The position numbers and the translations under genes are program-made. DNA of 64,000 nt from contig JAHBBC010000006.1 of the NCBI GenBank assembly GCA_019915015.1, positions 992,001 through 1,056,000 of the forward strand, read 5' to 3'. Below, piece after piece: positions 9,080-51,989 of the stretch (position 1 is the stretch's first letter; each line of letters begins with the position of its first letter). Below the pieces are notes generated by a model. That model did no database searches. It saw only the letters and a program-made list of their open reading frames with translations, and had not been told where the DNA came from. This DNA is from Auriscalpium vulgare (taxonomy: Eukaryota > Basidiomycota > Agaricomycetes > Russulales > Auriscalpiaceae).

Positions 9080-10636
9080 ATATTCAGGCGGCCAGGGGTA
9101 TTCTCTATACAGTTATTCCGCTGTGAAACACCTAAAATGAATAAAAGGAATGAGGGAACTCACTCGAAAAATGTCGACCCAGCCCCCCGAGTTATATGGC
9201 AGGAACTAAGCGACCAGCTGAACACGCTGCGCCAACCCGAGCCTCCGCGCGCCTTCGGCAAGCTCCCTACTTGGTCCATTTTTGCATTGCTTATGCCTTC
9301 CTCAGGCTCGAGGACATCCTCGACAGAGGCCATGCCAAGGATGAAGAGTGAGTTGCCTTTCCTTCTCTATCTTGACCTTATTTGTTTATTACTGCGCTAG
9401 GCCTACAAGTGCATCATCCGATCTCGGCCGCGCTTTGCAACCGCCTTCTCGCAGCGACCCGGTGGAAAGGACGGCTGCAGAAACTGTCGAAATTCGAACA
9501 GAGGGAGATGGCCCTCACAGTATGATTCATTTGCTCCAGATACTATCCTTTCTGATGTTTGACAACAGCACCTACGACCGCTTCTTCAACCAGTGCCACT
9601 TTCGACCCCGTTGCCACCGATCCTGCCATCTCATCGCCCATCCCTCACATCCAGGAGCCCTCCTATGCTCGCTCTGGCAATCGGGATGTTGCTCTAGGTG
9701 CGTCTCAAAGTTCGGTCTAGTAACTATCGCTACATGCATCTTCATCAACAACCAGTTCCCTCAATGGTTCCTCGCCCGGAAGACGATACACCCGCGCGCT
9801 TGTTTGCAAAAAACGACGCCAAGACCTCATCTGTCGTCACCGGCCACGATGAGGCTCCTGCGTCTGCGACCGCTTCCTCAAGCACTGTTGCCTTCAAAGA
9901 TCTGGCGGACACTGAAGAGTCCGCTGGTGAGCCTCGTTTCGCGCCTCTCAAGACGATAAGTGCGTCCTCACTCGACTCGTTTCTTCTAAATGCAACACGT
10001 CCTAAGTTCCACACCCAGATGACGAAGGATCGGCACGCTTTACTGCAGAAGAGAAGGGGAAAGGTTCCTCTGTCGTCGTCGGCCGCAACAACTCTGTCTC
10101 GAACACCGGCTCTTCTAGTTCTAGTCCTCTTACTTCGCCCGTGGCCAAGATGCATCCAGCGCGCAGTGCCCCCAAGTTGACCGCAAAGGTTCAGGAAATT
10201 CCGCCGATCATTCCTCCTTTCGTCCAAAGGCATTGGTGGTCTGAAGAAATTATCCAGTGCGTTTCCACTTCTTCTCTTACGGTGCCCAGCTCATGTTGTC
10301 ATAGACGCATCCGGGTCATCTTAACCACGGCCAACCCCGCAGAGAACTTGTTCCCATTGGCTTCGCCCCCGAACAACGTCAAATGGAATGGCAATCAGCT
10401 TTGCCTTGCAACCAACGACTTGGGGTTAATGGGCCAATGCACGCATGGCAGTACAATTACTCTTAATCATTTAGGGGGGAGGGGGGCTTGGCCATCCAAC
10501 ATACAACTGACTGCCTGGTGTAATTATGTCCTTTTTGAATATGTTGGAGATATAATACTTGGGGTTAATGGCTCTGGCTCCGCATGCAGGAAAGTGACTC
10601 TGTGACTGTATTGAGATGTCAGGGCAAAGTTGTGGT

Positions 10637-11492
10637 GATGGGCACCCACATGTAGTAGGGTGGTAATGTCACATGTGTCCAAAACCAGATCCCTAGTACA
10701 GCACTAAAGGGGATATTGTAATGTGTGTGAGCAAGTGAAAGAGACAAGTGAGGGGCAGTGCAAGCGCATGGGGAATGGTCAGTGCTGTCAAGAAGTGTGG
10801 AAGAGGTGTCCTACAATGTGGAACAAGACAATATGAACGGAATAGAAGACAATGGAGATGTGGCGAGCAATAGAATGCACTCTGATATAGGAGGGAGTTG
10901 TAGGCAACTGCTGCGATGTTGTGACACTGCAATTTTTCAGAGGAATGCACTGGAATGGTGTGTGCAATGGTTGGAGTGGTGGAGCAATAATTAGAGCACT
11001 GGCACAATCACAGAACAATTGGGATCAGAGAAATGCAGCATGAGCTCGAGAGCTGAGCTGTACTATGGTCGGAGGATAGGCGTGACTGTGGAGGTACTTG
11101 GCAGTCACAGAGTTATCGGAGTAGTGTGGCGCACATGTTCTAACAACAATCTCGATGATCAAAATGTCATATGAAATCCTGCCAAGATGTGACAGCAGTC
11201 TGTGCTCAAGGTCATGTGGTCGCAGTCAAAACAATGTGCGAGTGGTTGGATGACTGTGTGTGGGGCATGCAACTGAGTCGATGGTCTGAGTGTGGTGTCC
11301 AAGGTATGATTCCTATTGCGTGAATGCCCTGCGAGACTCCAACGGTCACAACTCTGGCTCCAATCTTGCGAGCGCTGAGAGACTAATTGGGTGGTTGGAG
11401 CTTGTCTGCGCAACTTTCTGACCTCCGGAATTGCGTGACTGTCGGCTTGTCAAAAGTGTGAACATTGGAAAACGATTGCCTCGCAGCGAGGT
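10637..11492 (+). repeat. Segment shared with repeats at 22300-22960 and 50262-51985
   Basis: It begins TGATGGGCACCCACA and ends near GATTGCCTCGCA. Long stretches match the 50262-51985 repeat (for example AGTGCAAGCGCATGG and TGGTGTCCAAGGTATGATTCC). The inverse complement matches parts of 22300-22960. It is a component of the body of the 3.1 kb element. The origin is unknown. Confidence 0.6.
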
Positions 11493-13003
11493 GACAAGCC
11501 TCGTCCCGCGCGCTGAGAGGAATTCTTAACTATCTTTTTGCAGTTTCAACCAAGTCCTTGGTCACATTACCTAGGCCTTCCCGTGCCACAATTAGAACAC
11601 TCTGCCGACTCCCATGCTACTCGCACTAAGCACCCGACCGCATGCCCAGTCGCCATACGCTAGCCAGCACAACATTTCCCATGCCTGTCACGGCGCATCA
11701 GATTTGCATTAGACTTGCACAGCCTGGTCGCACGACGGCCACACCCGGCGCTACACAGTGCTGGTGCTCCCACGCCATCCGAGTACTGCCCCAGTTGCCC
11801 ATTGTCCGCACCACTGTCCCGACCGCTCCAACACCCTCTGACTCAGCGCTCCCGACATGCCCGCTCCCCTCCAACACATCCTAGCATCTATCGACACATG
11901 CTACCATCTCATATTCATGAGCGCCTTGCGATTGACTCGCAACCCAGCCACTCCACATGTTGGAAGCATTGCCACATTCACGATCGGAAGACGCAGCCTT
12001 GTGTCACCATTATCGGACCACCGCTATCATGCTCAATATGGCACGCCTTGTCTGTTCCCATGCTCCCCGAGGCTGTTTCCCACAGTCAACAACAGAGCGG
12101 ATCATTTCCCGCGCTGTTTCCTTTGTCCTTTGACAGTGCAGATCACTCGCTCGACATTGTCCCCTGCCTCGTTCCTCATTGTCTGACTGTCGCATGACTC
12201 CCCCGCATTGTCCGTACCATTTGATATGATGCTGCTATCTTTCCCTTTGTCTTTCTGATGTCTCTGTACTTACTTGATTGGACACGCACTGTATTTGTCA
12301 CAACATATAAATAGTTGTCGGATACTCTGTGCAATGCAAGTTACGTTCCCCCCTCATCGCTCCCAGCACATTTCATTTGTGCACTCTTGTCGCCTTCGTA
12401 TCATATAGCGGTCAACACCGGTTGACTGCTCTGACGCCTTAGCCTCAGCCATCATCTTAGCCTTTGTTCTCGCTTCCTGTCTCATCGCTCCCATCTTGTT
12501 CCATCCTTGTTGCCTTTGCCCGAGTCATCGATTGCAATCGCGTTGCAGTCTTCCGGCGTCGCTCGTCTTGTCACTGTCGCGCCCTCAATCGGAACGCCAT
12601 AGGTTTGATCGGAGATGGTCGTTGCTTACTCCGGGACTCCTGACGCTCGCTCGCACACACATCAACACCTCGGTAGCGCTCTAGGGATCTGGTCGACTCT
12701 GCTGTTTACTGCCCTACCTGGTGGTGTCCATCAGCGGAACGAGGAATATCATCAGCGTGAATGCACTTGGTAGATCTTGGTCTACACACAGGGAAATATG
12801 CACTGGCTAATACATCACAAGTCCTGCAGACTCCAGTACCCTAACCATTGTGTGTGCATTTATTGTAGCTTTCTGACAATATATAATATGTGTATATTGT
12901 ATCAGGGAAAAGGCAAGAATTTGATAAAAAGAGCAAAGTGTATTGTAGGGTAAGAGGGGATAGAAGGTTGATACAGACTATCCACAGCTGTTCAATGAGT
13001 ATA

Positions 13004-13089
13004 GCCTTCTAGTCTAGTGGTTACTGCTCTTAGACTATGTTATGTAACTCATAAACTGCATGCTGTGGGTTCAATTCCCTCTATGTGCG
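13004..13089 (+). ncRNA. tRNA-like module inside element copy 1
   Basis: It contains an A-box-like TAGTCTAGTGG (13010-13020) and a B-box-like GGGTTCAATTCCC (13068-13080), spaced as in a tRNA gene with an intron or enlarged anticodon arm. The acceptor ends (GCCTTCT against the sequence after the B box) do not pair well, so it is not a functional tRNA. It resembles the head of a tRNA-derived SINE. RNA polymerase III transcription is possible but not shown. Confidence 0.5.
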
Positions 13090-14118
13090 CATTTTTAATA
13101 GTAAAAATATTAGGCCCGGGTATTGTAATAGCCGGAGTAGAGAAAAATGACGTAGCAAACCGGATCAATTGGTAGAATGCCCTCTAAAACTACGTCATCT
13201 TTCTCTGCATCAACCGTGGGAACTTTCTACCAAAAATGGAAACTCTAAGGCCTCTTTTTCTGATCACAGAACAATTTGAATCATGAGCATATCAGTGTTA
13301 GTTAGCTTGCAAAACGCAAAATACTCACAGACACGAGTGTCTTTTGGAGCGAGGATGTGGAAAAGCATTGGGCAGAAGCTGCTTAGCTAAGAATTACTGA
13401 ATTTGGCAGGTGGAACGACGCGACTTGACCGTGTGAGACCATTTCCTAAAGCGACTTTCCTGACGGGCACTTTTTGGCCTGACTGGTTGGAGAAAAAAAC
13501 GATTAAGAGTAATCGTAAAGCGCCTGTCATATTGCGCGTCCTCGGAGAGATCAAGTTCCTTCGTTTCTACGACTACAACAAGCCAGTCGCGCAACCTATC
13601 GTCGGGGTGCTCCCTCTTACGAAGCAATCACTTTTGCAAGCCCAGGCCATCACTCGCCGATACACTAAGCCGGACAACGGTAAATTCTCCGAATTCAGCC
13701 TTGCCACTCCATTCATGGCATATATATAATCGCTGCGGACATTATCCTGTCGGGAATCTACGCAAAGTGCTGGTCCACCGAAGTTCGTCGAGGAGTTATA
13801 GGCTCTGTGGTCTGTCTCATTCATTTTCCTTGGTAGAATCTACTGATGATCTTCAAGCCGGTACCTTACACGGAAATTTATGACTCTCAAGACCTGGCGT
13901 CCGGTGAAATGCCTTTGGAATCCCAGTACCTCCTCCGAGGCGACCTTGTCTATGTCGACGTAGGAATTGGGCGCTACAAATCCTCGTCTGACATGGAGAA
14001 CAAGCCCAAGGCCAAGGATATGACCCGCGTCAACTTCCAGATGAAACGAGTCGTACTTCTCGCCTCTGGAGAACCTGGTTTCGATTTTGGTGAGATGAAT
14101 AACTCGTCTTACCCTTAG

Positions 14119-14822
14119 GCAATGTTTCGTTTGTAAGATTATGTCGAGTTTGGTTGTCATAGATAGAAAAATCAGAAAATACCGGATCTCCGGCGAAACC
14201 TGGTGTGAGCGACAATTTCTGCCCGTCGCCTGAGTTCGGCTCTCTACTCAGAGCACGAGGGCTATTGACAGACCTACATGAACCCTAACCCTAGACACAA
14301 ACACAGAGGGAAACCACTTGTCGATTCAACGCCCCACTACAAATGCGGCCACGTGTCGACTGCGTCGCTCAATCCTGTTCTCCCGTGGCTGGTAATCATC
14401 CCAGCTACAGACGTCGACGCTGTCCTCTGCTGCATCCGATATGTCGGTCCGAAGATACGCAATGAGTCTGCACCAAGGCGGCATGAGCGTGGGAACTGCG
14501 CCTCTCCGCTCTGTGGTTCGAGTTAGCCCCTGTACTTAGCCCTTCGCTTTCGCGTTCAACCCTCTGCGTGTTCGCTCGCTACTCCCTACATCATGCTCAA
14601 GAGACGGCATTCTCCGGATGTTTTTTCACGAGCTGTCCGAAGCCGAGGCCGCGAAGAGAATTGCCCGTGCTCTGATGGTACGAGCAATTACTTGAAGCAA
14701 ATTGTCTCTGATATCTCCTAGAATATCTGAAAACTGTCCTGTCGAGCGGTGGGACACTGTCTGTGACCTGGCGTGTCTGTCGGCGCTGTGGTGGGCATAA
14801 ATAAACTTCAGAGTAATTTTTG
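14119..14822. other. No confident gene
   Basis: The stretch contains several short ORFs on both strands with weak protein character. A possible acceptor CTGTGCGTAG lies just at the start of the following duplicated module. I see no element ends here. Confidence 0.3.
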
Positions 14823-15228
14823 TTGACCCTGTGCGTAGGTATCGCGCAGAGTGTAGCGCCTGCTACCGATGGCGTTGATCCTACCAATGCCTGCGCACTT
14901 GACACCAACGCCGCATCGAATGAAGGCGCTGTGGCGAGCGCTTTCGAACCAACAGCTGAACCTATGATGGTGGACTGCGAGGCGTCGGGTTGGTCTCCGC
15001 CTTTCTTTGCTCTCCTTTCTCTCAGTTGACCCTGTGCGTAGGTATTGCGCAGAGTGTAGCGCCTGCTACCGATGGCGTCGATCCTACCAATACCCGCGCA
15101 CTTGACGCCAACGCCGCGTCGAATGAAGGCGCCGTGGCGAGCGCTTTCGAACCAACAGCTGAACCTATGATGGTGGACTGCGAGGCGTCGGGTTGGTCTC
15201 TGCCTTTCTTTGCTCTCCTTTCTCTCAA
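14823..15228 (+). repeat. 203-bp tandem duplication containing an exon-like unit
   Basis: Two units, starting at 14823 and 15026, are nearly identical. Each begins TTGACCCTGTGCGTAG, an intron-end-like sequence. Each then encodes about 50 residues in one frame (AQSVAPATDGVDPTN to MMVDCEASG) and ends in a polypyrimidine tract (CTTTCTTTGCTCTCC). The repeat thus looks like a duplicated exon with flanking intron. A third, shorter unit with a related end (EDSGPSG then GTTAGT) follows near 15240-15330. Confidence 0.6.
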
Positions 15229-17436
15229 TTGCAGTGCAGAAAATCAATCAACCGGCCGTCTGTCCGGTCGCGGTCTTGTCCATCATCAAGCTACGCCTAA
15301 CGTGGAGGACTCTGGGCCGTCGGGTTAGTCACCTATTCATCTTGCTTGCATTTCTTTAAACTCGGTACAGAAATTCATCCGGATGACTTACGGTTCGGCC
15401 ATGGCGTCGTCGACCAGAAACTTTTACCTGGTCAGTTTCGGTTATGCGCAACGCCCAGGCTCGTCTGATGTCTTATTCAGCCGAGAGAGAATGGCTCGAA
15501 GGAAAAGGCAGTATGGCCGCTGTTTTCGACGCTGTCTTTGCTAATAAGGCGGAGCATGTCTCGGACTCCGGGCTGTACACTGAGCCGATTTGTTGCCCGC
15601 ACTCCGGTCACGTCGATGGCGAAGACATTCGGTTTTCTAATAGAGCGCTTATGCAGGCGAGCATTTTATTTTAAAAAAATAGCGAGAAGAACCACAACTA
15701 GGCGTCTCTATGGTTCTCGCACGTACGACTTGGAACCCTCAGCAAATTTTGTTCTCCGTAGAAGATATGCTGTACGATTACAACTCTTAACTATGTGTCG
15801 CTTGTCACGGTACTTGACCAACAATATTTCTCCCGACGATCTGAAGAAACCCTGTCAGGCCTGCTCTGGACGTCTTCGACGGACAAGCTCCTAAAGCCAG
15901 CAGCGAGCCGCACATTTCCTTTTCCATGTGAAACCATTTCCACCCTGCGAGCAAGCAAGACAGGAGTGCTTCCGAATGAGACACAGATGCGTATAAAAGA
16001 CTTCCCTGGACACCTGTCGGATGCTCAACCAGCATGTCTCCATGCCCCACACCCTACCCCGGCGCTCTACTCGACTTACTCGCCACACCCTCCACCGCGT
16101 GCAGGTGTCGGGCAAGCTTCTACGCCGAAGCTCTCGAGCTTAACATTCACATCGAGCGCGGAGCCACCGCAGAGCGCGGTGCGCAACTTACAGGCTCGCT
16201 CTCCCTCCACGCACTCTACTTCTCAATTCTTATCACGCACGCTCTCAATCACGCTTCTGTTCTCCGACATCCCCCCCTCGTCACGGAGACACGTCAAGCG
16301 GGCAATCCAGGACACTGTCTAAGTGTTCTGTTCCACCCCTACCCGATGGAAGGAAAGAGCTTTATAGTCAGGCGCTTCATGTTAGCTTCTCGGGCGACCA
16401 CCTATGATTTTCTTACATCTTACGACCCGTTCTCGCTCATCGGCCGGCGGGTGCCCGACACTCAGAGGGAATTGGACACACTGTACCAAGCACCTATCCC
16501 TTCCCCGTAGATCTTTCGTCCCGACAAAGACCGCGCCGCATCCGGTGTACGCTATCTGCATACACGTACTGTACACTTGCAACACCAGTAATATAGCGAT
16601 TACCAAGTCCCAGCGTCACCGTTCGATCGCCTCATCCTTGCGACGCCCGGCGTCACCAGCATCAGCATTCACGGTGGGCCTATTGGCGAGCTGCTCGAGG
16701 TTGAAGGTCGTGGAGGTCGGGGAGAACGCGTCCACGGCGGAGCATTCTTCGCGAAGGGTCGAATCCACGTCTAAGAACACGTCGGGCGAGTGCGTCGGCT
16801 GGGGCAAGTGGAAGGCGAGTGACGTGCGACGGCAAGAAGCCCTGTGGTGGTCGTGAAGCTGAGAACATACGCAGCTCGGAGGAGAATTGAGAATACGCAC
16901 TCGAGTCCTCCCGCTGAAGTGACCGTTGCGTGTGGGCATTGTACACGACGGCTAAATGGAAAGCTACGCCACGCGCAAGGCGCGCGGCCTTGTCCTACAA
17001 GCGGGCGCGCGCCGGTATGGAGCAAGTTGTCATATGCAGGAGAGTGGGAGATGCCGTCGATGAGAAAATATAGCGATGAGAATGGCCTCGCTCGCTTCGT
17101 CGTTGACGTGGCGCCTGGTGAGCCTTCATACTTGTCGAATGGACGAATATCACACACTGGATGTAAGCCTTGGTGAGTTAATGACGAAAGGCAGCAAGTG
17201 GATCACAAACCTGTCAGGCCATGCCGAAAGTACTGATGCACACGCCGCGCACAGCCGTAATGGCTGCGACAGCGACAACGACCGTTGACAAGCACTTAGG
17301 CAAGCGAATTTTTCCTGATGAGTTCTGAGTCTCATGCATGACGATTCCTCTATAGTAATACATTGAGTAAGAGTGTAACTAGTTGTAGCATATCTGATGA
17401 GTGGAGAAGTCGCCAAGACTACAATCTGCAAAGACT
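15229..17436. other. Unresolved region with possible gene remnants
   Basis: Several ORFs of 70-175 codons overlap on both strands, and none is recognisable. The better candidates are 16034-16510 on the plus strand (ending RELDTLYQAPIPSP), 17045-17163 plus (MRKYSDENGLARFVVD, followed by a possible GTAAGC donor) and 16616-16939 minus (FLDVDSTLREEC). I could not thread a multi-exon model. It may be degenerate host sequence. Confidence 0.3.
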
Positions 17437-17651: not shown

Positions 17652-20489
17652 CTTGGGGTTAATGGGCCAATGCACGCATGGCAGTACAATTACTCTTAAT
17701 CATTTAGGGGGGAGGGGGGCTTGGCCATCCAACATACAACTGACTGCCTGGTGTAATTATGTCCTTTTTGAATATGTTGGAGATATAATACTTGGGGTTA
17801 ATGGCTCTGGCTCCGCATGCAGGAAAGTGACTCTGTGACTGTATTGAGATGTCAGGGCAAAGTTGTGGTGATGGGCACCCACATGTAGTAGGGTGGTAAT
17901 GTCACATGTGTCCAAAACCAGATCCCTAGTACAGCACTAAAGGGGATATTGTAATGTGTGTGAGCAAGTGAAAGAGACAAGTGAGGGGCAGTGCAAGCGC
18001 ATGGGGAATGGTCAGTGCTGTCAAGAAGTGTGGAAGAGGTGTCCTACAATGTGGAACAAGACAATATGAACGGAATAGAAGACAATGGAGATGTGGCGAG
18101 CAATAGAATGCACTCTGATATAGGAGGGAGTTGTAGGCAACTGCTGCGATGTTGTGACACTGCAATTTTTCAGAGGAATGCACTGGAATGGTGTGTGCAA
18201 TGGTTGGAGTGGTGGAGCAATAATTAGAGCACTGGCACAATCACAGAACAATTGGGATCAGAGAAATGCAGCATGAGCTCGAGAGCTGAGCTGTACTATG
18301 GTCGGAGGATAGGCGTGACTGTGGAGGTACTTGGCAGTCACAGAGTTATCGGAGTAGTGTGGCGCACATGTTCTAACAACAATCTCGATGATCAAAATGT
18401 CATATGAAATCCTGCCAAGATGTGACAGCAGTCTGTGCTCAAGGTCATGTGGTCGCAGTCAAAACAATGTGCGAGTGGTTGGATGACTGTGTGTGGGGCA
18501 TGCAACTGAGTCGATGGTCTGAGTGTGGTGTCCAAGGTATGATTCCTATTGCGTGAATGCCCTGCGAGACTCCAACGGTCACAACTCTGGCTCCAATCTT
18601 GCGAGCGCTGAGAGACTAATTGGGTGGTTGGAGCTTGTCTGCGCAACTTTCTGACCTCCGGAATTGCGTGACTGTCGGCTTGTCAAAAGTGTGAACATTG
18701 GAAAACGATTGCCTCGCAGCGAGGTGACAAGCCTCGTCCCGCGCGCTGAGAGGAATTCTTAACTATCTTTTTGCAGTTTCAACCAAGTCCTTGGTCACAT
18801 TACCTAGGCCTTCCCGTGCCACAATTAGAACACTCTGCCGACTCCCATGCTACTCGCACTAAGCACCCGACCGCATGCCCAGTCGCCATACGCTAGCCAG
18901 CACAACATTTCCCATGCCTGTCACGGCGCATCAGATTTGCATTAGACTTGCACAGCCTGGTCGCACGACGGCCACACCCGGCGCTACACAGTGCTGGTGC
19001 TCCCACGCCATCCGAGTACTGCCCCAGTTGCCCATTGTCCGCACCACTGTCCCGACCGCTCCAACACCCTCTGACTCAGCGCTCCCGACATGCCCGCTCC
19101 CCTCCAACACATCCTAGCATCTATCGACACATGCTACCATCTCATATTCATGAGCGCCTTGCGATTGACTCGCAACCCAGCCACTCCACATGTTGGAAGC
19201 ATTGCCACATTCACGATCGGAAGACGCAGCCTTGTGTCACCATTATCGGACCACCGCTATCATGCTCAATATGGCACGCCTTGTCTGTTCCCATGCTCCC
19301 CGAGGCTGTTTCCCACAGTCAACAACAGAGCGGATCATTTCCCGCGCTGTTTCCTTTGTCCTTTGACAGTGCAGATCACTCGCTCGACATTGTCCCCTGC
19401 CTCGTTCCTCATTGTCTGACTGTCGCATGACTCCCCCGCATTGTCCGTACCATTTGATATGATGCTGCTATCTTTCCCTTTGTCTTTCTGATGTCTCTGT
19501 ACTTACTTGATTGGACACGCACTGTATTTGTCACAACATATAAATAGTTGTCGGATACTCTGTGCAATGCAAGTTACGTTCCCCCCTCATCGCTCCCAGC
19601 ACATTTCATTTGTGCACTCTTGTCGCCTTCGTATCATATAGCGGTCAACACCGGTTGACTGCTCTGACGCCTTAGCCTCAGCCATCATCTTAGCCTTTGT
19701 TCTCGCTTCCTGTCTCATCGCTCCCATCTTGTTCCATCCTTGTTGCCTTTGCCCGAGTCATCGATTGCAATCGCGTTGCAGTCTTCCGGCGTCGCTCGTC
19801 TTGTCACTGTCGCGCCCTCAATCGGAACGCCATAGGTTTGATCGGAGATGGTCGTTGCTTACTCCGGGACTCCTGACGCTCGCTCGCACACACATCAACA
19901 CCTCGGTAGCGCTCTAGGGATCTGGTCGACTCTGCTGTTTACTGCCCTACCTGGTGGTGTCCATCAGCGGAACGAGGAATATCATCAGCGTGAATGCACT
20001 TGGTAGATCTTGGTCTACACACAGGGAAATATGCACTGGCTAATACATCACAAGTCCTGCAGACTCCAGTACCCTAACCATTGTGTGTGCATTTATTGTA
20101 GCTTTCTGACAATATATAATATGTGTATATTGTATCAGGGAAAAGGCAAGAATTTGATAAAAAGAGCAAAGTGTATTGTAGGGTAAGAGGGGATAGAAGG
20201 TTGATACAGACTATCCACAGCTGTTCAATGAGTATAGCCTTCTAGTCTAGTGGTTACTGCTCTTAGACTATGTTATGTAACTCATAAACTGCATGCTGTG
20301 GGTTCAATTCCCTCTATGTGCGCATTTTTAATAGTAAAAATATTAGGCCCGGGTATTGTAATAGCCGGAGTAGAGAAAAATGACGTAGCAAACCGGATCA
20401 ATTGGTAGAATGCCCTCTAAAACTACGTCATCTTTCTCTGCATCAACCGTGGGAACTTTCTACCAAAAATGGAAACTCTAAGGCCTCTT
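17652..20489. mobile_element. 3.1 kb family, copy 2 (lacks one end)
   Basis: It begins CTTGGGGTTAATGG as copy 1 does, and matches copy 1 at a constant offset of 7233 bp for about 2.84 kb. All encoded ORFs in this span have identical translations in the two copies, so divergence is very low. It stops at CTAAGGCCTCTT, where the terminus of copy 3 starts in the opposite orientation. The conserved tail and second end present in copy 1 (13258-13518) are missing. Confidence 0.78.
20237..20322 (+). ncRNA. tRNA-like module inside element copy 2
   Basis: Same A-box-like TAGTCTAGTGG and B-box-like GGGTTCAATTCCC as in copy 1, at the 7233-bp offset, and identical where compared. Not a functional tRNA by acceptor pairing. 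Confidence 0.5.
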
Positions 20490-21564
20490 TTACGATTACT
20501 CTTAATCGTTTCTTTCTTCAACCAAGTCAGGCCAAAACGTGAACACATTATAAGTCGCTTTAGGAAATAGATCCCACGGTCAAGTCGCGTCGTCCCAACT
20601 GCCTTTTTCAGTAATTCTTAGCTAAGCAGGTCCTGCCGCACCTTGCAGGATCCTCACACTTCAACTATAGCACTAGCATGGTTCTCATTACGAGTACTCT
20701 TAATTATGATTCCTCCTAATCATTTATTTTCTCCATCAGTCAGGCAAAATGCATGCATTAGAAAGAATGCTGTAGGAGATATGTCCCAAAGCTTGGACTA
20801 AAGTCAAGTCGTGTCATCCCATCTGCCTAATTCTGTAATTCTTAGCTAAGTAGCTCCTGCCTGCCCTGTGATTTACATACCTTTGCACTGCAAAAGACAC
20901 TCGTGTCTGCGAGTATTTTGCATTTTCCAAGCTAATTAGCATTGATATACACATGATACCAATTGTTCTCAGGTCAGAAGAGAAGGCCTTCTAACTTCCC
21001 TTTTTGGTAACATGTTCCCACGGGGTGACAATGGTGAGGTTGGCAATTGGGAGGGCTCTAGTTGCTAACTACCATGCATTATATATACCAGAAGTGTTGA
21101 GAGGATGTTGATCATGTGAATAGCCAATGATATAATTCCTCAACAAGCATGTGAAAATGACGCAGTTGAATCAGGCAGACTGGGATTTTTGCCGGTCAAT
21201 GAGTCATTGCTTACTAATCCGGGGATAAAGTACCCGGTTACCCGTTAATTGAGCAATTTTTAGCTAAGTAGCTCCTGCCCAATGTTTTTCAACACCTTCT
21301 CACTTCCAAAGACACTCATGTCTGCAAGTATTTTGCGTTTTGCAAGCTAACCAGCAACAATATGAACATGTTTTCAATTGTTCTCGAGTCAGCAAAAAAT
21401 ACTGCACGATTTCCATTTTAGGTAAAATTTTCCCACGGGTAGGCCAAACACGCACCATGACGCATCAACCGGCACTTTCAACTGTGTGCAGGTTTAAACG
21501 CGTCATGGTGCACAAACCCGGCTACTACAATACCCGGGCTGAATAATTATATCATTAAAAAGTC

Positions 21565-21642
21565 GCACAGAGGGAGAATTGAACCTACAACCTCTTGGTT
21601 CTTTATATCAACCAATAGCATTGACCACTACACTACAAGGCC
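21565..21642 (-). ncRNA. tRNA-like module inside element copy 3
   Basis: On the minus strand it reads GCCTTGTAGTGTAGTGG (A-box-like) and GTAGGTTCAATTCTCC (B-box-like). Between them TTGGTT and AACCAA can pair as an anticodon-type stem. It is diverged from copies 1 and 2 but keeps the same boxes and position in the element. Confidence 0.5.
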
Positions 21643-21879
21643 ATTTAGCTTTATAGGATATGTACAGTAGTTGTTGACCTTCTATCTTCTCCTGCCCTAC
21701 AAGACAGTTTGCTCTTTGCATCTATTTCTTTCCCCTTCTTTGATACTTTGGGAAAAGATATATATATCTAAAGCTACAATTATTGTGATTTGCAAAATGG
21801 ATGAGAATCACTGAAAAAAAGAGTTCAGAGGTCTTCGACCCGTGGGCTGCGGCGCCACCAGGTGCCGTGGCTTCGCTCT

Positions 21880-22290
21880 TGACTCCAACGCTTACACATT
21901 GCCGCTGCTTCCCACAACATGTGACGTGTTGTCGCTGACGTGCTGACGTGCCATGAGACATCGACAACATGTATCTCAGCTTCTACTGCACCTGTGGAGG
22001 TGGTTCTGGGCTCAATCGAGATAGTGATGTATACTATCATGACTGATTCACATATACATGCAATTCTATGGTGCTACTGTGGATAGAAATTACATACATG
22101 TGAAAATGAAATACAACTCTTTTGCCGTGAAATACAGCATCAGATAAACTCTTGGGCATCTTAGGAATACATGACATCCAAGCCCTTGATTGAGCCCGGA
22201 ACCGCCTCCATAGGCGTAGTGGAAGCCAAGATACACATTGTCGATGTCGTGTGGCGCGTCAGCACAACGGTGACGGCGCTGATACACATC
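21880..22290. repeat. Imperfect inverted repeat inside copy 3
   Basis: The plus strand at about 21900-22020 matches the minus strand at about 22290-22170: both contain GACATCGACAA, GCTTC and GGGCTCAATC in order. Both arms, read the same way, encode DIDN(V/M)YL...GGGSGLN. This suggests an inverted duplication of an old coding piece. Confidence 0.5.
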
Positions 22291-23056
22291 GCTCCATGCT
22301 GCGAGGCGATCATTACAGAATTTTCGCACTTTCATCAAGTCGACAGACACACAATTCTGAAGATCGCAGCATTGCACAGCAGTGCTCCGACCACCTGATT
22401 AGTTCTTCTAACCGCTCGCAAGATTGGAGTCTTGCAGAGCAGTCACGCAATCGGAATCATACCTTGAACACCACACTCGCGCCAGTGACGCTGTCGCACG
22501 CAGCACACACAGTCATCCGACCACTTGCTCGTTGTTCCAACTGCCACCACGTGACCTCGAGCACAGCACCTCCCACAGCTGTCACAACGCGTCGGAATTC
22601 CATCAGACATGTTTATTGTTGAGATTGTCATCAGAATGTATGCACGATGCCACTCCAGTCACTGTGACATCTGTATTCCTCTGCAGTTGCACCATTGTCC
22701 TCTGACCATTGTTCACCTCAGTTCTTGTACTCACACTGCATCGTTCTGATCCCGATTGTTTTGTATTTTTATCAGCGTCCCGATTATTGCCTCAGGATTC
22801 TGACCACCATTCCGGAGCATTCTTACCGGAAGAATAATCACAATGTCACAACATTGCAACACTCACCTCCGGCCACCTAGTGCATTGGAGCATGCAGGAT
22901 GTTGAGCTACCACCGAGTGATAGAGACAATCCCCAAGCCTAGACTGTCAGCAATTTTGCTTGGGTATATTTAATGGCCAAGCCCCTCTCCCCCCTGCCCC
23001 CTAAATGATTAAGAGTAATTGTACTGCCATGCTTGCACTGGCCATTTCCCACCAAG

Positions 23057-25940
23057 TTTTAATGACTGTTCTATTCTTTGGTCTGTTCACCAGTTCCCAA
23101 GTACCAAGCTTATTCAGCTGGTCCAATTCATACCGACACGCCTCCCACCATTTGGAAAAATCTCGCGATGCCATAGCCTCTGTGTAGGTTTTGGGATCGT
23201 GACCAACCATGAGATCTAACAGAGCGTGGAGATTAGGAGCTTCAAAGTCCAGCTGACGCACAAGTCCTTGTGTATCAGGCAATCGCCGTCGAAGATCCAG
23301 CTGTTCAACTTGAAGTGCAGTTAAGCCATCATACTGATCGCCGAGCCTTGCAGCTCTTTGACCAGCATTTGCACGTCGTGGACGCGCTGGTGGTGTCACT
23401 GCTTCAGCGATAGGTGGAGATTCTTCTAACGGTGGGACTCTATGCCTAAGCGCTTCATTATCAACTCTAGCATTGGTTGCGCGACGAGGTGGTGTGCGAG
23501 GTGGAGCAGGAGGTGGAGGCGTATGTGGTCGTGATGGTGGTGGTGTAGCAGGTGGTGTTTTAACCTTAGAATCGTCTTTCTCTACTTTGGGTGCTGGATC
23601 CTCATCTGGATCCGAGTCATCTCCAGCTGCGTTAACTGGAGGAGCGGGCACAGGCCTCCGTTCAGGAGTGAAGTCCTCATCATTGATTAAATCAGAGAGA
23701 CTTAGGTGTTGAGTAGGAGGATCAGGAGCGCTTGGTGGTGCTTTCTGGGTTGGTCTCGAAATGAAGGAAGTCTCATCAAATGTTGCTTCGCCAGACAACA
23801 CAATGGACCGGGTGGCAGGATTCCAGAAACGGTAACCTTTTGAACCATCCTCGTAACCCACAAACGTCATTTCTTTGGCATTAGGTTCCAATTTATGACG
23901 ATGTTCCTTCTGAATGTGCACGTAGGCTTTGCAGCCGAAAACGCGAAAGTACGCAACATCAGGAATGTGACCAGCACTCCATACCTCCATTGGCGTCTTC
24001 CATTTCAACGTACGGGTGGGAGTGCGATTGTAGACATGAACAGCAGTCTCAACCGCGCATTGCCAGAACCCAAGAGACAAGCCTGCATGATGAAGCATAG
24101 ACAGGGCTTTCTCCATGATGGTACGATTCCAGCGCTCCGCACGTCCGTTCTGTTGTGGCGTGTAAGGCATGGTTTTATGATGCGTGATACCCAGTTCTTT
24201 AAAGCGTTTATCCAAGATAGTATTTATATATTCCCCTCCTCGATCAGAGTGAAAGATCACTAGCTTGACACTAGTTTCCTTCTCAGCTCTGGCCAGGAAT
24301 GTCTCAAATGCCAGGAGAAAATCTGACTTTCGCTTGAGGAACATAGCAACTCCTTTGTTACTGAAGTCGTCGAGGAATGTCGCAATATATGTGAATCCTT
24401 GGATAGACTGCACACGCATAGGTCCGACTAGATCCGAATGGATTTTGCCAAGAACCCTGGCGGCACGCTTATCTGAACTAGGGTAGGTCTGGCGAGTGCT
24501 CTTGCCAAGCTCACATCCATGACAGGGTTTAGTAGCCACTGTAGCATGGTCTATGACAATCCCTTTGACAACTTCAGAAGTAAGTCGTTTCAGGGCGCCA
24601 TGTGACATATGAGCAAAGCGTCCATGAGCAATGTCAACCGAAACCGCATCTTTAACCGTCGCCTCATGAACCGCAGGTTTAGGCTTAAGCTCCAACCAAT
24701 AAAACTGATCGTGCTTTTGGCCAATACCATAGGTTATGCCAGCGCGTTCTATTGTACACACTCCTGTAGAACCACGTAGAAGCACATCAAACTTCTGGTT
24801 CAACAGTGTAGTCACCGATATGTATCGATGAGCGGCTTTAGGTGCAAAAAGCACATTCTTAAGCGTGACCGCAACACGCTTCCCATCCACATCTGTCCAC
24901 GCATTGACAGTGCCCGTCCCATAGAAGTGCATAGCCTGGGCAGTACTATCACCAACGGCAATATGTCCAGGTTTTTCTAGGGGCGTGTACTGGGCAAAGT
25001 CTGTACGTGTGTGTGTAATATGGTGAGAGCAACCACTGTCAAGCATCCAGCGATTCTTATCAGGCGAGAGGTACCAGGCAACAGCGACTTCATTGGAGGA
25101 CGAGGCCTCAACAATTAGAGCATTTACAGAGGGTTTACTACTACCTCCGCCGCCGCCACTACTGTCCCCTCCCTTCTTCTTGTCGCCAGCTTCATCAGCC
25201 TGTTTCTTGCGACAATTGGCCTCCCAGTGACCCTTCTTGTGACAGTACTTGCACTTGCCCTTCTCCACCTTCTGCTTTCCTTTGGCTTTGGCAGCCGCAG
25301 AATTAACAGTGGCAGCGATGGTGGAGTCTGCCTTTATGCTAGCCTCTTTGCCAAGGATGCGAGTAGTGATCTCAGCAGGAGTGGCAGTTTTAAGGTCACT
25401 GAAGGAATCAAGGGTAAGATCCCTAAATGCTTTATAGGAATCTGGGAGGGCCTTGAGGAGGAAGTACGTGTGTTGGATGGGTGTAACAGTTATGCCATTC
25501 TTCTTGAGATTCTCATACTGCTGATCAAAGTCATTGATCTGAGGTCCAAGAGGTTTGGTATCGATGAGACGGGTGGAAAGGTAGAGGTCAAATTGGGTGA
25601 AGATGGTGCGAGTGCCGGGTTTGGAATAGGATGTTTTGAGAAATTTCCAGGCATCAGAAGAGTGGTCATCGTTGCCCACTTTGTTCTTCAAGGCTGGTGC
25701 CAGGGATGCTTTAATGTATCCAAGCGCCACATCATCTTCTTCATCCCATACCGCCTCCGCCTCCACCTCAGTTGCAGTAGGATTGTCTGGATCTGCAGCT
25801 TTGGGAGATGGCTTGGAGCCACTGGTGTACCTCCAGAGCTTCTTGACTTTAAGAAAGGCCATCATATCATCTTGCCAAAGGGCATAGTTGCTGTTTCCAG
25901 CTAGGATGGTAAATCCTTTGGGAAGTAATTCTCCAGACAT
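23057..25940 (-). pseudogene. Ty1/copia Gag-protease-integrase, truncated in RT
   Basis: Copia-class polyprotein read from ATG 25940 (MSGELLPKGFTILAGNS). In order it shows a UBN2-like Gag, a zinc knuckle (CKYCHKKGHWEANC), a retropepsin site (WMLDSGCSHH), a GAG-pre-integrase region, and an integrase core with D (HSDLVGP), D (HSDRGGEY) and E (NGRAERWNRT). After a proline-rich linker the start of RT follows (LGTWELVNRPKNRTVIK). There it is cut: downstream bases belong to copy 3 of the 3.1 kb family. The rest of RT, RNase H and the 3' LTR are missing and were not found on the other side of copy 3. No internal stops were seen up to the break, so the remaining part is well preserved. Confidence 0.85.
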
Positions 25941-34029: not shown

Positions 34030-35419
34030 TTACGATTACTATAATCGTTTATTTAATCCACAGGTCAGGTTTTTTGTCGCACATTTTTATGAGTCGCTCT
34101 AGGAAGTTGGCTCCCACGGTCAAGTCGCGTCGTGACACCTGCCTAATATGGTATATCTCAGTCAGCTTTGATTCCTAGGTCTCTTGCATGTATGAACCAT
34201 CAAAAGTGTCGCGTTTACACCAGTATTTTGCAATTTCTAGGCCAATGAGTACAGATATGAGCATGATTTTGAGTGATCTAAGTTGACAAAGCAAGTGTTC
34301 ATACTTACTATTTTTGGTATTACTTTCCCACGGTACTCGAAATGTACCCTATCTGGGACCTGGGGACTAGGATATGAAGGGACCTCATAGAATAGCCTAT
34401 GACAATGTAGAAGATCCTTTGAAGCAGCTTCAAAAGGTATATATGTATGTATTGCCATTTGAGTTACCATATATGGGCATAGGAATGGCCACCTGGGTGT
34501 TTACGGCCATCCAGGTGTCGCACTTGTGAAAGTGCGACACCTGGATGGCCGTAAATACCCGGGTTAGGACCAAAGATGGTATATTATTCCCACGGGTTCA
34601 GAGCAGACCATATCTTGGCCAATATTTATTCAATCAGGACAATCTTGGTATCACTGGACTCCTAAAAATCAGCTCTATTTTATCATGTATTACATGAGTC
34701 TACATGAGGGTTGTATAGCCTTCATTTCAGATGTTTATCACTTCATATACAGCATATATAGAGTTAATATGTCAATTGCCATTGTAAAATGATCATAATT
34801 CCTCAGTATAATAAGTCAATGTACCAACTCTATTTGTGTGATTTTTACCATTTTTAGGTAGGTCAAAGGTACACTCAGGCAACAGTATGTAATAAATTCA
34901 AGCAATATTCTGTTAGAACTGCATACATTTAATCTTCTCTTTGTCTTTTGATTGAATATTTTGCCATATATCTTTCACTGCGTCTCCCAGAATTTATGAG
35001 AGTAGATGAAGCTCCCATGCAGCATAGATTACCTCTCTGGACCTTACAAAGTCTTTGAGCTGTCAGAATTATAGATGGACGGGTGTTAGTCTCTTGCTGA
35101 GCATGCTCAGTCAAAACTATATAGGTGGGATCTGTTAGCACCAGGTGGAGTACATGAAGTACCCCACAAAATATATACCAGCATATGTCACACATCACAA
35201 TTCTAGTTCCACATACAGCCATACTAGAGCCTGTGCTCTATTTATAGAAACCTAACAGCATGTGTCATAGCTATAATTGAACTGAGCCTAATACAGTAAG
35301 TAGAGAATATAATGGCTTAGCATCTGTTGTTATCACATAAAATATGTAAGAAAACTAGATATAATAATAATGATTATAGTAATTGTACTGCCATGCTTGC
35401 AATGGCCACTGACCCCAAG
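34030..35419. mobile_element. 3.1 kb family, copy 4 (short, inside LINE ORF1)
   Basis: It starts TTACGATTACTATAATCG and ends ACCCCAAG, the same two ends as copies 1 and 3. Without it the LINE ORF1 frame reads AAKW-MSEESC with no gain or loss of bases, so there is no target duplication. The inner motif is ATTACTATAATC at both ends, so both inverted repeats differ from copy 1 in the same way (CTCTT replaced by CTAT). A perfect 26-bp hairpin (34500-34555) next to CCCGGGTA and two TTCCCACGG motifs keep the family order. No clear tRNA-like module or G-rich patch was found, and the AT-rich body is shorter. Confidence 0.72.
34500..34555. repeat. Perfect 26-bp hairpin with 4-nt loop
   Basis: Arms 34500-34525 and 34530-34555 are exact inverse complements (TTTACGGCCATCCAGGTGTC and onward). 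The loop is GTGA. It sits in the same position as the less perfect hairpins of copies 1-3, beside CCCGGGTA. Confidence 0.92.
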
Positions 35420-45373: not shown

Positions 45374-45881
45374 GTAAGCGTCATATTGTTTTCCATGCAT
45401 GACATTTCTAACGATTTGCAACAGTCTCCTCCCATTTCAGCCTTTCCAAGTTGCGCTTGACGTGTGTGCATCCTTTACTCAATTAAGTTTCCTCAACAAG
45501 TCCTATTGCTTTATCTTAAATAACTCCATAAACAAACTCCCTGGCTTGATGTTTGCGTAGTGTTATGTACGATATTGCACGAAAATATAAGAAAACCACC
45601 TTGATGGTCACCTGAGCGGATCGTATTAAGCGGCGGACCAGGCTGTGCCCGGAGGGCGTAGGAGTAGTGATGTCAGGGGCAGGTCAGGGTTTCCATATGT
45701 CAGAAGTCACACATGTCACAGTCATCTCCTAGTGATGGCACCCTCGTCGGGTTAACCAATGGGCCCACAGAGTGACGCAATGAGAAGCACACACGGATGA
45801 AAGCGAATTTGATAGGAAAGTTGGCAGCAGTGGGCAGAAATCGCCAGCAAGCGCCGAGTAAGAAGTTGATGCGCCAGGCGT

Positions 45882-48154
45882 CCCTGTAGGGTAATAAGAA
45901 ATAACACCGATGACTATCGGTGTGCTAGTTTCGAGGATTGACCGATAAGGATATCATTTTAAATGGGTCGGCGTAGGAGATATTTAAAATGATTCCGACG
46001 GTAAAAATGTTGTGATCCTATTGGCTACGGAAAAATCGGCTAAAATCTGATAAAATGTTGAAAGAATTCAGTCCGCGTCGGTTCCCACGGGTACAGGACG
46101 GAAATAAATTTTCTAAAATGATTACCAGTACTACGAATAGCTGCCCGTAGGGCTTGGAAAAATAGGGAATAATACGGAGAAATCGGAATATATTTGGGGG
46201 CGTCGGTGTCTAGCCGATATCTCTTCCCACGCGTCAACAGATTCCCACGGTCCCAAGAAATGCTATTTTTAATCATTTGCGCTGGTATATAATCCTTTCT
46301 GTAGGCCCTGGGAAAACCCATTGACAACCATACAGTGCATGTATGATGTAGACTTACATGTAGTCCATATATACAAACTGCTTGAAGCCCATTCTATTCA
46401 AATGCGAGCTGGACGGAACCACAAACCAGGAAAGTATCTGATACAGAATATCCTGCAGGCATGATCTTCTTTATCTAAGCAACCAAACTTTGTACACAGA
46501 TAGCTCTCAACACCTCAAGACTTATAGTATTTTTTCCATGACCCAAGCCCCCCCTCAATTCTTCTCAAACACAATTTCTTTAGTATCTATGCTATTGAAA
46601 TAACATCGATATACATATTTGGACTCCTTATGAATACATTTGGCATGTTCTGACTGCCATAGATGCACAGTGAAAATAACATCACTGTCTACCACTACTT
46701 TCCCCATTTACCATCTTCTCCTTTGAAGCCTCAGGTAAGCTGCATTCAATATATATATTCATTATTTATATGTTTTGGCCCAAAAGAATGGAGTGTGCTT
46801 AATAGCTCCCCAAGACTTGGTCAATAAAATTCCCAAATATTTCAGAGTACTCACAGACCATGCCCCACCCACTGCTATAAGTATTGAATTCCTTCAAGGA
46901 GTTGGTAGATAGTACTGTACTTCTACTCTGATACAGCCCATACTACTGTCCTTGTCCCAGATGCATGTGCAATAGCAAATGGTCCTTTCTTTTTCCACTG
47001 AATCTTGACTTGTGATATCAGCTTGGTTGAGCATAAGCCTATGATAATTGAGAATAGGGCCATTCATATATACATGTACAAGCCTGGGACCATTCTATAT
47101 CTTAGAGGGTATGTCAGAGTGGAAGTACAGTACCATCTACAAAATCTTTGTAGGATTCCAATACTTATAGCAGTGGGTTGGGCATGGTATGAGAGTGCTC
47201 CGAAATATTTGGGGATTATATTGACCAAATCCTGGAAAGCAATAGTATTAGGCCCACTCCATTCTTTTGGGCCAAAATATATAAATAATGAATATATGTG
47301 CAATCTACCAATGGCTTCAGCATGGTAAATCTAGAAAGTAATGATAGAGACTAGTTGCACTTTGACTGGGCATCTACAGCAGTCAGACCATGCTAAATGT
47401 ATTCAAAAGTAGTGCAGATATGTATATCAATACTATTTCAACAGCGTAAATACTAAAGAAATTGTGTTTGAGAAGAATTGAGGGGGGGCTTGGGTCATGG
47501 AAAAAATACTATAAGTCTTGAAGTGTTGAGAGCTATCTGTGTACAAAGTTTGGTTGCTTAGGTAAAGAAGATCATGCCTGCAGGATATTCTGTATCAGAT
47601 ACTTTCCTGGTTTGTGGTTCCGTCCAGCTCGCATTTGAATAGAATGGGCTTCAAGCAGTTTGTATATATGGACTACATGTAAGTCTACATCATACATGCA
47701 CTGTATGGTTGTCAATGGGTTTTCCCAGGGCCTACAGAAAGGATTATATACCAGCGCAAATGATTAAAAATAGCATTTCTTGGGACCGTGGGAATCTGTT
47801 GACGCGTGGGAAGAGATATCGGCTAGACACCGACGCCCCCAAATATATTCCGATTTCTCCGTATTATTCCCTATTTTTCCAAGCCCTACGGGCAGCTATT
47901 CGTAGTACTGGTAATCATTTTAGAAAATTTATTTCCGTCCTGTACCCGTGGGAACCGACGCGGACTGAATTCTTTCAACATTTTATCAGATTTTAGCCGA
48001 TTTTTCCGTAGCCAATAGGATCACAACATTTTTACCGTCGGAATCATTTTAAATATCTCCTACGCCGACCCATTTAAAATGATATCCTTATCGGTCAATC
48101 CTCGAAACTAGCACACCGATAGTCATCGGTCTTATTTCTTATTATACTACAGGG
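45882..48154. mobile_element. Foldback element with arms of about 1.1 kb
   Basis: The two halves are inverse complements about a centre near 47018: the frame 46040-46327 on minus and 47709-47996 on plus translate identically. Outer arms are nearly identical and the inner 300 bp per arm more diverged, leaving almost no unique middle. The ends read GTCCCTGTAG with TAATAAGAAATAA just inside. Smaller palindromes (CCGATGACTATCGG) and two TTCCCACGG motifs per arm occur. No transposase ORF is present, so this is a non-autonomous hairpin-type element. GATGCGC occurs in both flanks, but a clean target duplication was not found. Confidence 0.8.
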
Positions 48155-48252
48155 ACTGGTGGATGCGCACACCTTGGAACCCATCGTCCTGACGCTGCCC
48201 AAAGCGCCTTGCCCGCCACCCACCTGCCCGCTGATCCTCTCCGACCAAACTC
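48155..48252. other. Spacer between foldback element and MULE-type gene
   Basis: Short proline-codon-rich stretch of the plus strand. It may belong to the following gene's N-terminus. Confidence 0.3.
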
Positions 48253-50261: not shown

Positions 50262-51985
50262 CCGGTGATGAGCACCCACAGATAGTAGGGTGGTAGATGT
50301 GTGTGATACCAGGATCCCTAGAGCGCTGAGGAGGGTACCGTGATGATGTGTGTGTGCCAGTGGGTGTCAGGATCCCGAAGATGATCGGAAGCGTGTCTCC
50401 GACGCGGTGCGTGGGAGGTGTGTGCAGTTGGAGAGGTGGATCGGAATGCGCAAACGGTTGGGGCGCTGTGCCGTCAAGGGTCCGGAGGCGAGGACACGTG
50501 GTGCGAGCAACTGAGAGCGACTGGATACTGTGCGTATGACCGTCAACGAAGGTGTGCAGAGTGTGGCTCAGATGTGTGATGCGCGACGGCGTTGCGAGGT
50601 GGTCGGAACAACGACGAGGGGTGCAGGCAACGACGCTGAACCGTTCCGATTGTGCGAACTGGTCGGAGGAGTGGAGGCGTGGGTTGGAATGTGGGGTCGA
50701 GTGGTGGGAATGGTGCGATCGAGGGTGCGATCGCGGCGGGACAAATGAAGGCGAGGCTGCCATCTCCGATGTTGCAAGATGGTCGGAGCAACGAAGTGCG
50801 AGGGCGATAGCGGAGGGGACGACGATGGAACAAGATGAGAGCGAGGAGAACGATGAGCTGAGTGCGCGAGATGACGACGAAGACAAAGGCAAAGGCAAAG
50901 GCCACAGAGCTAGCCTCGAGCTAACTATACAATAGAGACGGAGCTGCTGTGCTCCGAATGAGATCTGAACCGTGGGGGGGGGGGGGGGGGGGGGGGGGGG
51001 GAACCAAATCTGTATTGCAGTATGGATGCGACTGCTATTTATATGTCTCGACCACTACAGTACAAGTCTGATCGAGAATGAAGTGGAAACAAAGGAAAAC
51101 GGTCGGAACAAAAGCAAACGATGGTGCGCAAGTCGCACATGGTACAGACAATGGAGGAGAGTCAATAGAACATATCAGAAGGTCTGCGAGGCTGTAGAGA
51201 ACAATGTAGAGCAAGTGATCAGCGCTGTTAGAAGGGCAGTGCAAGCGCATGGAAAACGATCTGCGCTGTCAAGAAGTGTGAGAGAGACATCCTACAATGT
51301 TGAACAAGACAATACAACCAGAAAAGGAGGCAATGGAGGTGTGGCGAGTGACGGAATGCTCTCTGACTTGCAAGGGGGTTGCAGGTGAGTGTTGCGATCT
51401 TGCGACTCGTCGAACAGTCGTAAGAATGCTCCGGTACTGCGTGTGCAATGGTCAGAACGGTGGAGGGATAATCGGAGTGCTGGTCCGGCCGCAGAACGAT
51501 CGGGATCGAAGAAATGTGGCGCAAACTTGAGAGCTGGGCTAGACAATGGTCGGAGGACAATGGTGCGGCTGCGGGGGTACTCGGAAGTTGCAGAAGCGTC
51601 GGAGAGGCGTGGCGCACGTGCTGAAACGACGATCTCGATGATCAAAATGTCTGATGGAATTCCGACGCGTTGTGACAACTGTGGGAGACGCTGTGCTCGA
51701 GGTCGCGTGGCGGCAGTCGGAACAATGAGTGAGTGGTCGGATGACTGCGTGCGATGTGTGCGACAGAGTTGCTGGTCCGAGCGTGGTGTCCAAGGTATGA
51801 TTCCAATTGCGCGACAGCTCTGCGAGACTCCGAAGGTCGGAACTTCGGCTCCGATCTTGCGAGCGGTCGGAGGAACCAATCGGATGGTCGGAGCACTGCT
51901 GCGTGACGCTGCGATCTCCGGAATTGTGTATCTGTCGACTTGACGAAAGTGCGAAAATTCCGTAACGATCGCCTCACAGCGCGGA
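50262..51985 (+). repeat. GGTCGGA-rich dispersed repeat
   Basis: It begins TGATGAGCACCCACAG, as does 10637 inside copy 1, and ends near GATCGCCTCACAG. The word GGTCGGA, or one-base variants, recurs many times across it. It contains a run of 28 G (50974-51001). ORFs inside, on both strands, are rich in the same repeated words and are not credible proteins. It lies between pieces of two different transposase-type genes. Confidence 0.65.
50974..51001 (+). repeat. Homopolymer of 28 G
   Basis: Read directly. The exact length is uncertain in any assembly, as such runs slip during sequencing and replication. Confidence 0.9.
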
Positions 51986-51989
51986 GCAA

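Follow-up and report, generated by a model that had tools for sequence, protein, structure and literature searches.

A probable non-autonomous Helitron2-type element family with its own target rule in Auriscalpium vulgare

The DNA analysed here, referred to as the window, comprises 64,000 nucleotides of the Auriscalpium vulgare contig JAHBBC010000006.1 (C6:992001-1056000; the genome amounts to 51.6 Mb in 96 contigs). On its minus strand, at positions 10419-13518, it carries a 3100-bp insert (copy A) that is very probably a non-autonomous rolling-circle element of the Helitron2 type, and that represents a new family, of a kind already known, which has its own target rule. The assignment is based on asymmetric inverted-repeat arms, a 5' hairpin, insertion beside a T without detectable duplication, many copies, empty insertion sites and Rep/helicase relatives that share the ends. 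The value of this fungal family lies in its ends being exact to the base and its recent activity, and in the presence within one genome of empty sites, several arm subtypes and possible Rep/helicase partners.

Boundaries and termini of element A

The insert splits an exon of the host gene, whose left part lies at 10379-10418 and whose coding part to the right of the insertion lies at 13519-13700, both on the plus strand. The translation of the joined flanks showed that excising 10419-13518 links KWNGNQLCLATNE with APVILRVLGEIKFLRF in a single frame. Moreover, the first and last bases are the same in all 20 end pairs (copy A and 19 others that were fetched, paired by strand and distance) and the flanks differ, which fixes the boundaries of the element. 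The limits proposed in the original prediction from the repair of the reading frame were right to the base, and the ends do not extend further.

Read on its own strand, element A runs from the 5' terminus at 13518, with the sequence TTACGATTACTCTTAATCG, to the 3' terminus at 10419, which reads CCCCAAG and is followed by T. The motif ATTACTCTTAATC occupies 10456-10468, 37 bp from one end, and in inverted form 13501-13513, 5 bp from the other, as had been predicted. The extended arms (10452-10472 and 13497-13517, minus strand) are 21 nt long and 90% complementary, and they lie 33 bp from the 3' end and 1 bp from the 5' end, in agreement with the asymmetric subterminal inverted repeats described earlier. 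The hairpin expected near one end was located at the 5' end, where the repeat at 13499-13516 (minus strand), 2 bp from the terminus, forms a 7-bp stem with a 4-nt loop. The DNA fold of bases 3-20 has an energy of -4.6 kcal/mol (z -4.57), a value equalled by 0 of 200 shuffles, and two further 5' ends gave z values of -4.88 and -4.99, so that the hairpin is supported in all three ends folded. The 3' arm is followed by GCCA-N9-TGGC (10433-10449, minus strand), a weak subterminal palindrome kept in the six 3' ends compared (A, copies C and D described below, and three Rep/helicase elements), and then by CCATTAACCCCAAG. The motif CTTGGGGTTAATGG stands at 10419 and is repeated internally at 10558.

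Element A seems to carry no genes for its own movement. Its 160-aa open reading frame (11715-12197) and the counterpart in copy B gave no Pfam match, and the similarity of the Rep parts described below to A is limited to a short segment at the 3' end of A. Inside A, near the 5' end, there is a tRNA-like stretch (13003-13093) with TAGTCTAGTGG and GGGTTCAATTCCC, which we take to be A-box- and B-box-like motifs; ARAGORN called no tRNA in the element, and Rfam gave no match at E 1.

Copies, empty sites and target

The family is dispersed and recently active. The search with the 18-base 5' end, allowing at most one mismatch, gave 145 matches in the genome, 129 of them exact (46 + 83), and none with the reversed control, as expected from the earlier suggestion of an element family. 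The 33-base 3'-end pattern gave 56 matches and the 3' pattern of a related subfamily gave 27, both with up to three mismatches and with no control match. The 148-base right end was found at least 51 times, this count being a lower bound because 40 of 165 candidates were scored. Recent activity is indicated by 10 of these 51 matches, including that of the window itself, which are identical over the whole query, and by the identity of copies A and B over 2841 bases.

Three further copies are present in the window. Copy B (17652-20491, minus strand) is identical to A over 2841 bp, the flanking A included, and lacks the 5' part beyond the point at which copy C starts. Copy C, which belongs to a related subfamily and has the opposite orientation (plus strand), has its 5' end at 20490 and its 3' end at 23056. 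Copy D (34030-35419, plus strand, 1390 bp) represents a subfamily with changed repeats, carrying ATTACTATAATC at both ends. Copy B ends exactly at the 5' end of C, and a copia-type open reading frame, not the rest of B, follows the 3' end of C; this arrangement (17652-25940) is perhaps a chimeric junction that arose from recombination between two C copies. Diverged relatives of the interior of A were found at 50264-51990 (best 73% over ~750 bp), where the pattern searches of the window gave no ends. Six elements (L065/L023, L066/L024, L070/L025, L071/L026, L074/L028 and L082/L029) have a 3' 100 bp identical to that of A and a 5' 148 bp that is 84% alike, and combine ends of different history. 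Tandem 5' termini 19-25 bp apart occur at C1:3581259/3581278, C2:1617114/1617139 and C48:72030/72049, and 16 bp apart at C44:114626/114642 (L018, L064).

Queries made of joined flanks matched uninterrupted sequence in 3 of 20 cases, two of which were clean. The site of a C2 copy (L081/L010) is uninterrupted in copy D of the window, near 34623, and in L077, with 117 of 118 and 116 of 117 aligned positions identical, and the site of a C14 copy (L072/L012) has uninterrupted counterparts in two Rep loci, L047 and L048 (110 of 120 each); all four alignments are gapless. The third candidate, L079/L008 compared with L027, was rejected (77%, gapped and internally repeated). Since the empty homologues of these two sites, which are those of other copies in the same genome and not that of copy A, are gapless, insertion contributes the element alone, with no duplication of 2 bp or more. 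The absence of duplicated target bases, claimed in the original prediction, is therefore upheld, and consistent target duplications were not seen. A 1-nt (T) duplication is formally possible, as A[CTTGG..CGTAA] and [ACTTGG..CGTA]A are indistinguishable.

Insertion next to a T, likewise proposed earlier, was observed throughout. In all 20 end pairs the 3' end is followed by T on the coding strand, and C never stands directly before the 5' end. In copy A the target base adjoining the 3' terminus is 10418 (A on the plus strand, T on the coding strand), and A directly precedes CTTGGGGTTAATGG in all 28 distinct flanks of the terminal motif, four inner repeats being left out. Genome-wide, the coding-strand base at -1 of the 129 exact 5' ends is G in 46, A in 43, T in 40 and C in none, the counts being partly non-independent as some ends are tandem or duplicated. 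The target rule D^T (N^T, where N is never C) is the family's own.

Rep/helicase relatives and classification

The profile searches of the genome gave 50 Helitron_like_N and 59 PIF1 matches, many of them in frames longer than 2,400 codons. The Rep part contains the Pfam domains DUF6570 and Helitron_like_N and the motifs HLHMLLW and YVTDYITK, presumably the HUH and two-tyrosine motifs, and it showed no relative in PDB at E 0.1. Named relatives, few among the 120 of 274 listed, come from the agaricomycete genera Athelia, Piloderma, Peniophora, Gymnopilus, Coprinellus, Ephemerocybe and Hermanssonia.

A block of the leader that precedes the C24 Rep ORF is present at six places (six candidates, all scored), namely C24:625539, C24:665546, C2:1760265, C10:1118083, C3:1038005 (a match 49 bases long) and C5:434905. 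It lies beside Rep/PIF1 genes at five of them and beside a broken helicase at the sixth, C5. At all six loci the GGGGTCAATGG form of the 3' end follows downstream, on the strand expected; where there is a PIF1 match, as in five of the loci, the distance from the end of that match is 2.32-2.34 kb. The two C24 3' ends, whose flanks differ, agree at 96.8% over 124 bp; compared with the end of A they are 86-88% identical over 115 bp. Besides the six leader-block loci, the 13 occurrences of GGGGTCAATGG comprise two others (C3:952946 and C4:417915) and five that, judged by position, belong to elements of 0.94-0.95 kb (three on C14, one on C48 and one at C2:255563) with a C5-like 5' end, 79-81% identical. 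In a single case, a more distant Rep at C11:79153 (~72% DNA identity), the D-type 3' end follows the end of the PIF1 match at a distance of 2.2 kb.

Both ends were read at the C5 locus. The coding region (L013) reads into the 3' end in the order helicase part, C-terminal piece, stop, 167 nt and terminus. The helicase part was matched in tblastn (E ≤ 1e-5) by 18 of the 120 listed relatives, including 15 of the 24 with more than 1900 residues, with best identities of 57-63% and a best E of 4e-57 in a search of that stretch alone. The C-terminal piece corresponds to the last residues of the relatives P0104 (1940-2062 of 2066, E 2e-17) and P0075 (1968-2104 of 2104, E 4e-15). The C5 leader block is 81% identical to that of C24 over 215 columns, and the 5' terminus TTACAATTACTCTTAATTG (L030) stands 926 bp before it. 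An earlier candidate, in which the right end served as the 3' end of Rep genes (C47:92193, C10:1109322), was abandoned after the 3' end had been read at C5. The search for a Rep-helicase relative with the same ends, recommended in the original prediction, thus succeeded for the 3' end (six of six loci), and for the 5' end at the damaged C5 locus only.

Several observations weigh against the Helitron2-type assignment. The 5' end of a Rep/helicase element was read at the C5 copy, in which the frame is broken, much of the gene is missing and two oppositely oriented elements, one A copy and one D copy, are nested, so that its two ends are taken to belong to one element by inference. The genome profile searches listed no Helitron_like_N or PIF1 match on C5. 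A 3' end of either pattern lies 5-10 kb downstream on the expected strand at 6 of 49 Rep places (C10:1115820, C24 twice, C3:1035735, C11:79153 and C2:1758134; of the 50 Helitron_like_N rows, C2:1758001 is the second piece of C2:1758134), and five close Rep relatives (C10:1083680, C10:1163318, C23:327364, C23:411154 and C9:1470485) have no 3' end of either pattern within 40 kb downstream. The exact 5' ends at C24:601573 and C24:671316 are unrelated in their inner sequence; they are therefore not both ends of the two near-identical C24 Rep elements. Furthermore, the 3' palindrome, although kept in six 3' ends, folds no better than shuffles (z 0.48), and the z values of whole 3' regions are -0.13 and 0.06, with one Rep/helicase 3' region reaching -2.45, mostly from the arm itself. 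Finally, TTTT precedes the target T in 0 of 20 sites, while TTTT^T or C is given for Helitron2 (PMC5148889).

Giant partners of ~30 kb were set aside as unproven. Upstream of six Rep loci, at 22.8-29.4 kb, lies an exact 5' end oriented as expected, but the orientation counts (12 expected and 8 wrong within 30 kb, 6 and 3 within 22-29.5 kb), together with the unrelated inner sequences of C24:601573 and C24:671316 despite 99% identity of the supposed Rep genes, spoke against them.

There is some small room for a reading in which the 3' end is all that the family has in common with Rep/helicase elements, the 5' end being derived from, or served by, another source. The single damaged locus with a 5' end favours it, as do the copies whose 3' 100 bp are identical to A and whose 5' 148 bp are 84-85% alike. 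We consider it improbable, as the C5 locus carries both ends and the five short GGGGTCAATGG elements, judged by position, combine that 3' end with the C5-like 5' end.

Less probable still is a Helentron in the strict sense, with the Rep/helicase fused to an AP endonuclease and insertion into TT. The subterminal inverted repeats and 3' palindrome resemble those of DINE-1/Helentron derivatives (PMC4067079), but the C5 coding region stops 167 nt from the 3' terminus with a piece that resembles the very C-terminus of relatives (one C-terminus was read), and T is found at -1 in only 40 of the 129 ends, which does not agree with a TT target. An endonuclease was also absent from the Pfam domains precomputed for the 120 relatives listed (of 274), many of them partial, and from Pfam searches of two pieces, a weak point alone because the same scan missed the helicase. 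Hence the Helitron2 part of the predicted Helentron/Helitron2 likeness is supported, and its strict Helentron part is not.

A canonical Helitron1 with decayed ends would account for the Rep, the PIF1 helicase, the lack of duplication and the T in the 3' flank. It is very improbable, since the 5' TC and 3' CTRR are absent from the ends compared, which are conserved and non-canonical, inverted repeats are present at both ends, and A stands at -1 in only 43 of 129 ends. The element had been regarded as a variant for want of TC and CTRR; this reasoning fails, as these marks belong to Helitron1 and not to Helitron2 (PMC3627910), and end searches based on them would miss such elements. Equally improbable is a cut-and-paste miniature inverted-repeat transposable element with imperfect terminal repeats: there are inverted repeats near both ends, but their placement is asymmetric (at 1 and 33 bp), two sets of empty sites show neither gap nor duplication, the 1-nt case aside, and the 3' end is common to Rep/helicase elements.

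The Helitron2-type assignment agrees with the published group (PMC3627910) in the short asymmetric inverted repeats (seen in the A, C, D and C5 ends), with the 5' arm as a hairpin 0-2 bp from the end and the 3' arm subterminal, upstream of a palindrome, in the 5' T (A starts with TTACG) and in the Rep/helicase protein. It differs in the position of the 3' arm (33 bp inside the end, compared with ~20-30 bp), the weak 3' hairpin, the CCCCAAG 3' end and the D^T target in place of TTTT^T/C (PMC5148889). FoHeli1 and FoHeli2 of Fusarium oxysporum share the fungal host, asymmetric repeats, hairpins, nested copies and multiple 5' termini, which the tandem 5' termini of the present family resemble, whereas they end in TCAG..ATTTT, insert at TNAT^T and belong to Ascomycota; TTTT^T/C was not used there to exclude them from Helitron2 (PMC5148889). 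Helitron2 elements of Agaricus bisporus (PMC12730594) show that the kind is already known in Agaricomycetes, but they carry a TET/JBP gene. DINE-1/HINE and Helentron elements (PMC4067079) are similarly non-autonomous, with subterminal inverted repeats and a 3' stem-loop, and differ in the TT target and the endonuclease-fused partner. HELPO1 and HELPO2 of Pleurotus ostreatus (PMC4289320) are likewise basidiomycete Rep/PIF1 helitrons, reported to have an A^T target and CTRR or CTTG 3' ends. In the open-licence literature, consulted in excerpts and without a text search for the end sequences, no description of the ends of this family was found.

Proposed mechanism and other features of the window

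A Rep/PIF1-helicase protein encoded elsewhere, most likely by the gene-carrying relatives in the same genome, would recognise the element at its 5' hairpin (TTACGATTACTCTTAATCG), nick and unwind it, and copy it as a single strand. The end of the copied strand would be set by the 3' inverted-repeat arm, the palindrome and CCCCAAG, and the strand or circle would be joined into a D^T site without duplication. That such a protein acts on element A, as well as the single-strand steps and the circle, we infer from the structures described above.

The arms change jointly between subfamilies: A and C have ATTACTCTTAATC, D carries ATTACTATAATC in each of its ends, and the two ends of the C5 Rep/helicase locus, whose arms read ACAATTA..TAATTGT, have ACAATTACTCTTAATTGT. 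This joint change fits the idea of Bao and Jurka (2013), who suggested that arm pairing ends the rolling-circle step (PMC3627910), and such natural paired changes make the idea testable. A bolder proposal, offered tentatively and more doubtful than not, is that the arms are a lock-and-key pair co-evolving with a Rep/helicase lineage, each protein moving only elements with matched arms, that the genome contains three types of arm (with a CTCT loop, with a CTAT loop and of the ACAATT form) side by side with the corresponding Rep lineages, and that the target choice excludes C before T.

Two further repeats were noted in the window. An inverted pair with arms of ~1 kb, 92% identical and ~180 bp apart, lies at 45880-48156, and a 203-bp unit is present at 14822-15231 in two head-to-tail copies that are 95% alike.

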